NCBI GenBank assembly: GCA_036397855.1
Contig: DASWID010000018.1
Coordinates: forward strand, 1-38,568
Direction: 5' to 3'
DNA from: Thermodesulfobacteriota bacterium
Lineage (GTDB): Bacteria > Desulfobacterota_D > UBA1144 > Nemesobacterales > CSP1-2
DNA length: 38,568 nucleotides
In this document: in pieces, positions 3,063 through 38,568 of the stretch
Layout of the letters: the number at the start of each line of letters is the position of its first letter
How positions within the stretch are numbered: position 1 is the stretch's first letter
The notes under the pieces: model-generated
Seen by the model: the letters and a program-made list of their open reading frames with translations, nothing else
Databases searched by the model: none
Told to the model about the DNA's origin: nothing
Program-made: the position numbers and the translations under genes

Positions 3063-3773
3063 ATGAATATGAAATATGGGTTTATTGAACATAAAGATGG
3101 GAAACTCGTAATTGATAAAACGAAGACGATGTCAATTCTAGCCAATAGACTTTTTTTAGAGGCGATGAAAGAAGTAGTAAATTATGCTAAAGGGGAATTG
3201 CTAGATGTTGGTTGTGGACAATCTCCGTTTTACCCATTATTTTTACAAAGAACTAGTGGGTATGTTAAGACGGATATGCTGACTTCTCCTGGAAAACCGG
3301 ACATATTCTCAGACATTATTGCTCTTCCGTTTAAAGATGAATCCTTTGATACTATTCTTTGCACTCACGTTTTAGAACATGTTTATGATCCATTCTGCGC
3401 TTTCCATGAAATGAAGCGCGCCCTTCGGCGCGGAGGAGTCATCATAATAGGGACTCCACTTATTTACTGGATACATGAAGCTCCTGTTGATTACCTAAGA
3501 TATACAAAATATTTTTACCAAAAAATAGCTAAAATGTATGACTTTGAAATCACTTACCTGAAGGAAGTTGGTGGAATTATGAGCGTCCTTGTTGATATGT
3601 TATCTAAGGGAATAATTCTTTTCTCGTTGAAAAGTAGATACCTGAGTTTTTTTAAATACATCTCTTTCCTTTTGCAGGATATAGGATGGGTTATTATTGA
3701 TAAAATTTTGAGAAGGGATTTTGCAATTCCCATAATGAACTTGGGTTACGTTGTAGCTTTTCGAAAAAGATAA
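3063..3773 (+). CDS. class I SAM-dependent methyltransferase (Methyltransf_11 type)
   Basis: The SAM-binding motif I LLDVGCGQSPF occupies about residues 46-56. A KTDML acidic segment follows, then the post-motif block FDTILCTHVLEHVYDPF near 100-116 and a GGVIIIGTPL strand. This is the pattern of small-molecule Methyltransf_11 enzymes. Length is 236 residues. The C-terminal third is hydrophobic (ISFLLQDIGWVIID region) and may pack against the membrane or a partner. The gene begins 9 bases after the TylF-like gene, so it is probably in the same transcript. ATG 3063 and ATG 3069 are both possible starts. The acceptor is unknown; a glycan or glycolipid acceptor is inferred from the neighbours. 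Confidence 0.85.
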   Translation: MNMKYGFIEHKDGKLVIDKTKTMSILANRLFLEAMKEVVNYAKGELLDVGCGQSPFYPLFLQRTSGYVKTDMLTSPGKPDIFSDIIALPFKDESFDTILCTHVLEHVYDPFCAFHEMKRALRRGGVIIIGTPLIYWIHEAPVDYLRYTKYFYQKIAKMYDFEITYLKEVGGIMSVLVDMLSKGIILFSLKSRYLSFFKYISFLLQDIGWVIIDKILRRDFAIPIMNLGYVVAFRKR

Positions 3774-37089: not shown

Positions 37090-37530
37090 ATGATATACAA
37101 TAAAGAGGAGATAAAAAATTTCATTCCACACCGGGATCCTTTTCTTTTTGTCGACAGTGTAATTGAGCTTGAGCCGGAGGTTAGGATCGTTGCATCAAAG
37201 CGTTTTGGCGATGAATTAGACTTTTTTAGGGGTCATTTTCCTGGGAATCCGATTGTACCAGGGGTTATCCTACTCGAAGCTCTCGCACAGGCTGGAGGGA
37301 TCTTATTTGCTTCTTCCTATCCTGAAAAAATTAAAGAGAAGGGCAGATTTAATGTTTATCTCATGGGTGTTGAAAGCGTTAAATTCAGGAAACCTGTTTT
37401 ACCTGGTGATAATGTAAAACTGGAAGTAAAACTTCTCAAAAATAGGTTACGGGGCCTGAAGTTTAGTGGCGAGGCGTTCGTAGGGAAGAATAAGGTCGCC
37501 GAGGCCCAGATCATTGCCGCAATCGTCTAG
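37090..37530 (+). CDS. fabZ: (3R)-hydroxyacyl-ACP dehydratase FabZ
   Basis: FabZ dehydrates 3-hydroxyacyl-ACP in fatty-acid elongation. The N-terminal IPHRDPFLFVDSVIEL and the active-site helix GHFPGNPIVPGVILLEALAQ, with catalytic His and Glu, are both intact (about residues 53-72). FRKPVLPGDNVKLEVKLLK follows. Length is 146 residues, standard. AAGGTGG at 37079-37085 before ATG 37090 is a good Shine-Dalgarno. In many diderms fabZ lies within the lipid A genes lpxD-fabZ-lpxA; here lpxD is absent on one side and tRNA genes lie on the other, so the fatty-acid role is the safer reading. Confidence 0.95.
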   Translation: MIYNKEEIKNFIPHRDPFLFVDSVIELEPEVRIVASKRFGDELDFFRGHFPGNPIVPGVILLEALAQAGGILFASSYPEKIKEKGRFNVYLMGVESVKFRKPVLPGDNVKLEVKLLKNRLRGLKFSGEAFVGKNKVAEAQIIAAIV

Positions 37531-37651
37531 TCCATCAAGGCTTATACTAACCGTCTAATAAATTTGATAATTTCTCGTGCCATGTTAATTTAAATTCCTT
37601 TAAATAAATCCTTTTCTCCAGTAATATTTCAATTAAGAGGGATATGATTTC

Positions 37652-37667
37652 AATTGATGTATCAATT
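37652..37667. repeat. perfect inverted repeat just upstream of tRNA-Thr(TGT)
   Basis: AATTGAT-GT-ATCAATT is a 7-base perfect inverted repeat ending 4 bases before the mature tRNA. It could be an operator, a processing hairpin in the pre-tRNA leader or chance in AT-rich DNA. A TATGAT at 37643-37648 may be a -10 box, but no matching -35 is seen. Confidence 0.5.
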
Positions 37668-37671
37668 AAAA

Positions 37672-37743
37672 GCTGGCGTAGCTCAGTGGTAGAGCAGCTG
37701 ATTTGTAATCAGCAGGTCGGGGGTTCAAATCCCTTCGCCAGCT
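37672..37743 (+). tRNA. tRNA-Thr (anticodon TGT), CCA not encoded
   Basis: Acceptor arms GCTGGCG (37672-37678) and CGCCAGC (37736-37742) pair fully, with discriminator T. The anticodon stem CTGAT/ATCAG encloses TTTGTAA, giving anticodon TGT. The T arm GGGGGTTCAAATCCC is normal. The genome reads CAA after the discriminator, so the CCA end must be added. Confidence 0.96.
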
Positions 37744-37752
37744 CAAATGATA

Positions 37753-37831
37753 TGATGCAAGATACAGGATGCACGATGCAGGATATTTCATGTACCGTTT
37801 ATGGCGAATCGTGGATCGTGCATGGTGCATC
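37753..37831. repeat. 7-bp tandem repeats between tRNA-Thr and tRNA-Tyr
   Basis: From 37753 the sequence reads as heptamers ATGCAAG, ATACAGG, ATGCACG, ATGCAGG and then degrades. From about 37806 the same type of unit appears in the opposite sense (GTGGATC, GTGCATG, GTGCATC), giving an imperfect hairpin. Bases 37761-37785 recur exactly in the next tRNA spacer at 38009-38033. Confidence 0.8.
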
Positions 37832-37843
37832 TCTTTCAGCGGC

Positions 37844-37929
37844 GGGGAGGTGGCTGAGTGGACAAAGGCAGCAGACTGTAAATCTGCCGGCGCGAGCCTA
37901 CGCAGGTTCGAATCCTGCCCTCCCCACCA
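37844..37929 (+). tRNA. tRNA-Tyr (anticodon GTA), CCA encoded
   Basis: Acceptor arms GGGGAGG (37844-37850) and CCTCCCC (37919-37925), discriminator A, then CCA (37927-37929). The anticodon stem GCAGA/TCTGC encloses CTGTAAA, giving GTA. A long variable arm marks a class II tRNA. Confidence 0.96.
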
Positions 37930-38004
37930 AGTTTTTTATAATGACAAATTATTAGCCGCGAATAGACGCCTATGAACACGAATGAAATAAGTCGTATATA
38001 CTAT

Positions 38005-38096
38005 TCACGATACAGGATGCACGATGCAGGATACACGATTCACGATGCGGAATGGAGGATACAAGATTCATCGTGGATCATGAATCATGCATCATT
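38005..38096. repeat. 7-bp tandem repeats between tRNA-Tyr and tRNA-Gly
   Basis: Heptamers run from about 38011: ATACAGG, ATGCACG, ATGCAGG, ATACACG, ATTCACG, then ATGCGGA, ATGGAGG and ATACAAG. After about 38065 the unit turns to the opposite sense (GTGGATC, ATGAATC, ATGCATC). Bases 38009-38033 are a 25-base exact copy of 37761-37785. Confidence 0.8.
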
Positions 38097-38106
38097 TTAC
38101 GGGTGT

Positions 38107-38180
38107 GCGGGAGTAGCTCAGTTGGCTAGAGCGTCAGCCTTCCAAGCTGAGGGTCGCGGGTTCGAGTCCCGTCTCCCGCT
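38107..38180 (+). tRNA. tRNA-Gly (anticodon TCC), CCA not encoded
   Basis: Acceptor arms GCGGGAG (38107-38113) and CTCCCGC (38173-38179), discriminator T. The anticodon stem TCAGC/GCTGA encloses CTTCCAA, giving TCC. The T arm GCGGGTTCGAGTCCCGT is standard. CAA follows the discriminator. Confidence 0.96.
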
Positions 38181-38193
38181 CAAAAATAGCGGT

Positions 38194-38269
38194 GCCCACG
38201 TAGCTCAGTCGGCAGAGCACATCCTTGGTAAGGATGAGGTCAGCGGTTCAAGTCCGCTCGTGGGCTCCA
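38194..38269 (+). tRNA. tRNA-Thr (anticodon GGT), CCA encoded
   Basis: Acceptor arms GCCCACG (38194-38200) and CGTGGGC (38259-38265), discriminator T, then CCA (38267-38269). The anticodon stem CATCC/GGATG encloses TTGGTAA, giving GGT. It is the fourth tRNA of the Thr-Tyr-Gly-Thr cluster that precedes tuf. Confidence 0.96.
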
Positions 38270-38431
38270 AAATGTTTAATGGAAAGAAAGCACCAAATCT
38301 CAAATTACAAATTCCAAATGATATGGACTGGCACTACTGTTTGGTATTTTAGAATTGAGGAATTGAAATTTATTTGTAATTTGGTACTTGGTGCTTGGAA
38401 TTTGAGTTGATTAATTTGGGAGGTAAAGAGA

Positions 38432-38568
38432 ATGTCGAAGGCGAGATTTGAGAGGGGTAAGCCGCACTTAAACATAGGTACGGTAGGGCATGTGGATCAT
38501 GGTAAGACGACGTTGACGGCGGCGATAACGAAGGTATTGGAGAAGCAGGGCAGGGCGAAGTATGTGTC
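38432..38568 (+). CDS. tuf: elongation factor Tu, N-terminal part (cut by the window end)
   Basis: EF-Tu delivers aminoacyl-tRNA to the ribosome. The 45 visible codons begin [20 protein letters not shown] and continue into the P-loop [14 protein letters not shown], which is unmistakable. GGGAGGTAA (38418-38426) before ATG 38432 is a strong Shine-Dalgarno. Codon use differs sharply from the neighbours: 28 of 45 codons end in G, all five Thr codons are ACG and all four Ala codons are GCG, in an AT-rich genome. Position after the tRNA cluster matches the classical tRNA-tufB transcript, in which the tRNAs are processed out of one precursor with the tuf mRNA. Confidence 0.96.

Follow-up and report, generated by a model that had tools for sequence, protein, structure and literature searches.

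Layout of the tRNA cluster and its spacers

The window (the whole stretch of DNA that was analyzed, 38,568 nucleotides) spans its entire contig and ends in a cluster of four tRNA genes, tRNA-Thr(TGT), tRNA-Tyr, tRNA-Gly, and tRNA-Thr(GGT), followed by the start of tuf (span 37672 to 38568; Table 1). Spacer 1, between tRNA-Thr(TGT) and tRNA-Tyr (37745 to 37843), and spacer 2, between tRNA-Tyr and tRNA-Gly (37930 to 38106), each hold a tandem array of the degenerate heptanucleotide GATNCAN followed by inverted units. Both arrays had been correctly located and read in the original prediction, whose unit, AT(G/A)CA(G/C)G, is a rotation of GATNCAN, the better spelling. The left arm in spacer 1 consists of GATGCAA, GATACAG, GATGCAC, GATGCAG, and a partial unit, GATA. 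A third spacer, from tRNA-Thr(GGT) to tuf (38288 to 38396), carries units of a second family, CAAATNN, with an inverted arm of their own.

Table 1. Features of the tRNA cluster, with positions in the window
Feature	Position	Strand	Basis
tRNA-Thr(TGT)	37672..37744	+	ARAGORN; Rfam RF00005
GATNCAN array, 4.4 units (hairpin 1, left arm)	37754..37785	+	Lag-7 P < 0.005
Inverted array NTGNATC (hairpin 1, right arm)	37808..37831	+	Pattern, fold
tRNA-Tyr(GTA), with hairpins 1 and 2 on either side	37844..37929	+	ARAGORN
CACGAAT-type left outer arm, tattagccgcgaatagacgcctatgaacacgaatgaaata	37950..37989	+	Sequence, comparison with relatives
GATNCAN array, 5 clean plus degenerate units (hairpin 2, left arm)	38009..38070	+	Sequence
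Inverted array NTGNATC (hairpin 2, right arm)	38070..38093	+	Pattern, fold
tRNA-Gly(TCC)	38107..38181	+	ARAGORN
tRNA-Thr(GGT)	38194..38269	+	ARAGORN
CAAATNN array, second heptamer family (hairpin 3, left arm)	38288..38319	+	Sequence
Inverted CAAATNN array, NNATTTG (hairpin 3, right arm)	38370..38404	+	Sequence
tuf (EF-Tu) start; the contig ends inside the gene	38432..38568	+	Product recognized by eye

The lag-7 scores of spacers 1 and 2 were matched by none of 200 dinucleotide shuffles of either spacer, and only one other stretch of the 38.5-kb window (14048), outside the cluster spacers, scored equally high. The 25-nucleotide identity between 37761 to 37785 and 38009 to 38033 that had been pointed out earlier is exact, but a local duplication is ruled out as its source: two more copies of the 25-mer, in L241 and L258, turned up in the 630 kb of this genome that was sampled, and the identity therefore reflects a common order of common units. 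In an Rfam search, the tRNAs alone reached the gathering score, and the other matches were weak (E of about 0.04 to 0.8) and far below it. No terminator-like site was found in 37500 to 38450, which makes it plausible that the arrays are transcribed jointly with the tRNAs and tuf.

Distribution within the genome and across phyla

The heptamer family is genome-wide and not peculiar to the tRNA cluster. A four-unit GATNCAN pattern had 172 exact matches in this 3.1-Mb genome (G000; 91 forward and 81 reverse), versus 0 for the reversed pattern used as a control. Among other genomes of the same family, G001, G003, G005, and G006 have 51 to 82 matches each, G004 has 4, and G002 has none; a few genomes of the same order carry up to 24, and another family of the class, whose genomes are small, had none. 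Absence from close relatives and from the rest of the genome was what the original prediction had named as counting against it, and since the family is present in both, that objection falls away. The distribution of the family is uneven: in an arbitrary 185 kb taken from other contigs, of which 2.8 kb was masked, the search pattern detected no GATNCAN elements, and lag-7 arrays were few. Within array-bearing stretches, lag 7 dominates intergenic tandem periodicity.

When one genome per species was searched across bacteria and archaea, the pattern GATRCASGATGCASGATGCASGAT was found in at least 118 stretches, compared to a chance expectation of about 0.03 (a rough figure from pattern length and collection size). 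Among the matches listed, hosts included Bacteroidota, Nitrospirota, Gallionella, Nitrosomonadales, Verrucomicrobia and other PVC bacteria, Chloroflexi, and others, and the GAT.CA core is conserved across arrays and phyla. The LysS encoded in the window is 65% identical to that of a named Candidatus Dadabacteria MAG (the one holding L075) and 64% identical to that of a same-order genome, while LysS proteins of the other named phyla tested are 45 to 56% identical to it. On this basis, the source organism is most likely related to Candidatus Dadabacteria.

The genomic placement of elements was assessed in stretches from G000 and from G003 and G006, which are two species belonging to a single other genus, with simple open reading frames (ORFs) as gene calls. 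These stretches were mostly picked because they hold elements, which biases per-genome rates and any enrichment near tRNAs. They contained 41 (G000), 33 (G003), and 38 (G006) elements, mostly outside ORFs of ≥100 amino acids and mostly in gaps between codirectional genes. In codirectional gaps, 30 of 59 elements lay ≤15 nucleotides from the upstream stop codon (15.2 expected by random placement). The rplK-rplA and rpsN-rpsH spacers were among the sites (products recognized by eye), and the genes flanking the elements had no common function.

In G003 and G006, an additional, outer inverted repeat, TTAGCCACGAATnnACACGAATGAAAA ... TTCGTGTnnATTCGTGGCTAA in type, encloses many of the GATNCAN hairpins. 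Its left half, the CACGAAT-type arm at 37950 to 37989, precedes the second array in the window. G001, G003, G005, and G006 also contain a separate dispersed inverted repeat, TTAGCCACGAATnnACACGAA / TTCGTGTnnATTCGTGGCTAA, with 38 to 73 matches per genome, which is found with or without a heptamer hairpin inside.

Turnover between relatives

Aligned blocks of G003 and G006 share about 92% identity, and indels between the two genomes are multiples of 7 in 8 of 9 cases inside arrays versus 2 of 46 elsewhere. Whole families also differ at shared sites. At two sites where G006 has GATNCAN, G003 has another family: ..TCAG in the rplK-rplA spacer and a CAAATNN-like one at the second site. Within the tRNA cluster, GATNCAN occupies spacer 1 in G000, G003, and G006; G001 has one GATNCAN unit pair there, and G005 has a GGTGTTN-like array. 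In spacer 2, G000 has GATNCAN, and G001, G003, G005, and G006 have an ATCCGNA-like family. Before tuf, G000 has CAAATNN and G003 has GATNCAN, and G001 and G005 have no arrays. G002 has the same tRNAs, as do G008, G017, and G023, which are more distantly related; in all four, the lag-7 signal was absent from the spacers tested. Different heptamer families at orthologous spacers mean that a hairpin persists at the site while one sequence gives way to another. Of the 41 G000 elements, 4 lie between orthologous genes at an intergenic site that also has an element in the other genus, and the tRNA spacer is a further shared site. The suggestion that the cluster spacers are hypervariable is borne out by these changes in unit number and swaps of whole families.

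The rplE-rpsN spacer of G003 (L181, upstream of rpsN) has the hairpin GTAGGGGCAGGTTTCAAACCTACTCC, with a GTAG start like that of tagged REPs; the site opposite in G006 (L194, about 3650 to 3760) has a GATNCAN hairpin.

Arm order

Opposite-sense arrays within 90 nucleotides of each other were convergent, with GATNCAN first, in all 76 pairs found by strict pattern, 17 of them from other genomes of the cross-phylum scan (17/17). An ab initio lag-7 search gave 76 purine-first pairs versus 4 for the GATNCAN family and, for other heptamer families, 18 purine-first, 2 not, and 1 tie; the purine-first counts include related copies, and the cross-species counts are not phylogenetically independent. A scan of viral contigs with matched patterns, in which some records were duplicates, found 9 GATNCAN and 11 CAGAANN sites in convergent order and none in divergent order, and a control scan of viral contigs with the Xanthomonas unit gave 0 matches in either order. 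Because reverse complementation leaves a convergent pair convergent, the rule is valid on both strands and cannot have its source in the direction of transcription. No explanation for a fixed arm order was found in the literature that we consulted on such repeats.

Folding and arm pairing

All three cluster spacers are predicted to fold better than shuffled sequences (z = −2.3, −2.8, and −2.4 for spacers 1, 2, and 3), in agreement with the fold-back potential originally proposed for the first two. The arms of spacers 1 and 2 can also pair with each other across tRNA-Tyr over about 44 bp, a structure predicted to be 12 kcal/mol better than the local hairpins; the predicted fold of the whole precursor prefers this stem, with acceptor stems intact. 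As a conserved structure the long stem was rejected, being possible in this genome only: spacers 1 and 2 of G001, G003, G005, and G006 carry different families that are unable to cross-pair.

Compensatory change between the arms was considered as proof of a selected RNA hairpin and likewise rejected. At the free positions, the two arms agreed in 41% of cases compared to 51% for random arm pairing, and all 500 permutations gave a higher value. The arms mismatch more than random arms because purines are favored at free position 7 in both arms on the sense strand (G000, G003, and G006). The low arm match, together with the nonmatching families in other genera, argues against selection for pairing.

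Spacer 1 of G006 forms a near-perfect predicted hairpin of about 31 bp (z = −10.5), with arms complementary at about 30 of 31 positions. Its G003 ortholog has an identical left arm and a right arm with about 8 changes over the 31 positions. This difference fits a candidate case of one arm having been copied from the other, in a direction that cannot be polarized.

Comparison with known repeat systems

Heptamer arrays are overrepresented in bacteria, and their origin and role are described as open (PMC4692102). Xanthomonas carries GGGAATC/GGGANTN heptamers and Nostoc carries GGGGA(C/T)T; the former occur in about 185 arrays per genome, about 90% of them intergenic and a mean of 28 nucleotides behind the upstream ORF, with 70 to 75 convergent pairs able to form stem-loops, array lengths that vary between species, and a proposed G-quadruplex structure (PMC4692102). 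The elements described here resemble the Xanthomonas repeats in being degenerate heptamers that are dispersed, intergenic, close to the upstream ORF, variable in length, and arranged in convergent pairs, but their unit differs and GATNCAN lacks G tracts. Family swaps at one site and arrays in tRNA-cluster spacers, both found here, are not reported in the sections of that account considered here (PMC4692102). The purine-first order across families and phyla is an addition of the present analysis.

The P6b stem of the Nostoc trnL(UAA) intron contains Class I TDNGATT and Class II NNTGAGT repeats (PMC4476775, PMC3488679). Like our cluster elements, it is a hairpin of a tRNA precursor whose two sides are built of degenerate heptamers and whose copy number changes in steps of 7 nucleotides. 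Its heptamer classes have repeatedly replaced one another at one site, a parallel to the family swaps in the tRNA spacers. The P6b repeats belong to one cyanobacterial intron, whereas those described here are intergenic, genome-wide, and in a noncyanobacterial lineage. The degenerate heptanucleotide hairpin class represented by Xanthomonas and trnL P6b has a 7-nucleotide unit with fixed and free positions, dispersal near the upstream ORF, convergent pairs, unit steps, and class replacement, all of which were found here.

The STRR sequences of cyanobacteria, reportedly the subject of work by Mazel in 1990, are said to be tandem heptanucleotides in many copies. The resemblance to STRR that had been noted for the cluster spacers holds in kind, in that both are heptamer arrays, but not in sequence: the STRR units are reportedly different, and so is the host group, the LysS comparison having placed the window outside the filamentous, heterocyst-forming cyanobacteria. 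The elements are the same, little-studied kind of repeat as the Xanthomonas and Nostoc heptamers, trnL P6b, and STRR, with a different unit, host, and setting. No description of the GATNCAN unit itself was found in our literature search.

Two further systems are less close. The TAACTGA repeats of Beggiatoaceae are intergenic heptamer arrays scattered over phyla (PMC4679880), but they are nearly all direct repeats (one indirect) with an invariant unit and lie mostly just upstream of start codons. REP/REPIN elements, associated with RAYTs, are extragenic hairpins downstream of genes that occur as paired copies (PMC3733652, PMC3116915). Our elements are likewise extragenic hairpins behind genes in paired copies, in a genome with RAYT genes, but they have heptamer periodicity instead of a constant 20- to 40-bp palindrome and a GTAG/CGTC tag; by inspection, array borders had no shared tag or constant palindrome.

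Origin of the heptamer hairpins

Any account of these elements has to accommodate a dispersed family of heptamer hairpins, 7-nucleotide steps, replacement of families at fixed sites, and a fixed arm order. The reading that we favor, with moderate confidence, is a REP-like family of heptamer hairpins that is driven by slippage and foldback and tolerated in transcribed spacers. The cluster spacers would then hold three such dispersed hairpins, two of the form (GATNCAN)n-loop-(NTGNATC)n and one of the form (CAAATNN)n-loop-inverse, each lying between cistrons, where it would be cotranscribed with the neighboring genes and fold into an imperfect hairpin. Arrays would change by replication slippage, the 7-nucleotide steps themselves being evident between relatives. 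The opposed arm would most likely arise when the purine-rich nascent strand folds back and copies itself, a quasi-palindrome template switch; such copying would place the purine-rich arm first on either strand, as observed. Whole hairpins would be exchanged at one site for those of another heptamer family, as the comparisons document. The behavior would be REP-like in that the hairpins fill spacers, often directly 3′ of a stop codon, and are tolerated in tRNA and ribosomal-protein operons, with effects that may at most be generic, on RNA stability or termination of translation. Four points weigh against this reading. The arm change between G003 and G006, from which foldback synthesis might be read, cannot be polarized; a common mobile ancestor would likewise yield one arm order; the arms are not kept complementary, contrary to conversion acting continuously; and related copies make the purine-first counts nonindependent.

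Family swaps at fixed spacers, indels in sevens, and, across phyla, a purine-first order on both strands are three testable regularities. Jointly, they point toward a mutational process of a general kind and open it to direct tests. More tentatively, one bacteria-wide replication process (7-nucleotide slippage plus self-templated foldback of a purine-rich nascent strand) might continually make, convert, and swap heptamer hairpins in intergenic DNA. We regard this extension as possible but doubtful; if true, it would explain the shared units in unrelated phyla, the purine-first arms, and the different families at orthologous spacers.

The main rival, which we consider unlikely, is that the elements are miniature transposable elements (REPIN/MITE-like) moved by RAYTs (REP-associated tyrosine transposases; Y1_Tnp). 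This genome has 17 Y1_Tnp matches and other array-rich relatives have 6 to 12, but only 2 of the 17 were seen near an array; G002 has 2 Y1_Tnp matches and no arrays, and G004 has 13 with only 4 array matches. In partial support, a flank resembling the sequence before the RAYT gene on contig C86, ACAATTGACAAATG or a close variant of it, is common to five elements. That RAYT-like gene (L236, 5374 to 6331) has an array about 0.5 kb upstream, and AATTGACAAATG precedes arrays at five places (also in L237, L254, and L255). The outer inverted repeat around many G003 and G006 elements and the wholly different spacer contents of close relatives at some sites would also suit transposition. However, no constant ends were found family-wide, with unit number, loop, and outer arms all varying, and the compared sites yielded no target-site duplication or clean empty site.

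A special role in processing the tRNA-tuf precursor, as had been proposed for the cluster, appears improbable. On that reading, RNase III/E would cut the spacer hairpins or the stem across tRNA-Tyr, and the hairpins or stem would direct maturation. The folding of the three spacers and the predicted cross-tRNA-Tyr stem, which leaves the tRNAs intact, are in its favor, as is the higher frequency of arrays in tRNA-adjacent gaps (13 of 50 versus 75 of 680; P = 0.005), although that comparison is biased by stretches having been chosen for arrays. Against it, arrays occur genome-wide, mostly outside tRNA clusters, and in protein operons too; G002, G008, G017, and G023 retain the four tRNAs with array-free spacers; the spacer families of G001, G003, G005, and G006 rule out cross-pairing there; and the variable arm positions pair worse than random arms. 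Since relatives without arrays keep the cluster and the arms do not covary, the arrays are unlikely to be a required processing signal. The heptamer hairpin is not a conserved requirement for tRNA processing, but it may have a strain-level role in this genome. More generally, a hairpin in a spacer of a tRNA or ribosomal-protein operon is not necessarily a processing signal.

It is very improbable that the heptamer is the binding site of a putative regulator: the conserved GAT.CA core would suit such a site, but unrelated heptamers replace GATNCAN at identical sites, the flanking genes share no function, and the elements lie behind genes, not at promoters. Repeats often break or collapse short-read assemblies, but the chance that the arrays are an artefact of a metagenome-assembled genome is negligible, given that independently assembled relatives hold corresponding arrays in the same spacer and that named genomes of other phyla, some of them isolates, carry the GATNCAN family.

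Two minor observations concern other contigs. In G004, the tRNA cluster on contig C88 (L172, 1970 to 2010; the relative with the most similar FabZ) has a tRNA-Thr that breaks at the anticodon, with unrelated DNA beyond, and ARAGORN found no tRNA in this stretch; it looks like a mobile element integrated in a tRNA gene. Two IMG/VR contigs (L294 and L295), possibly misassigned bacterial chromosome, each contain four CAGAANN heptamer hairpins within about 15 kb.
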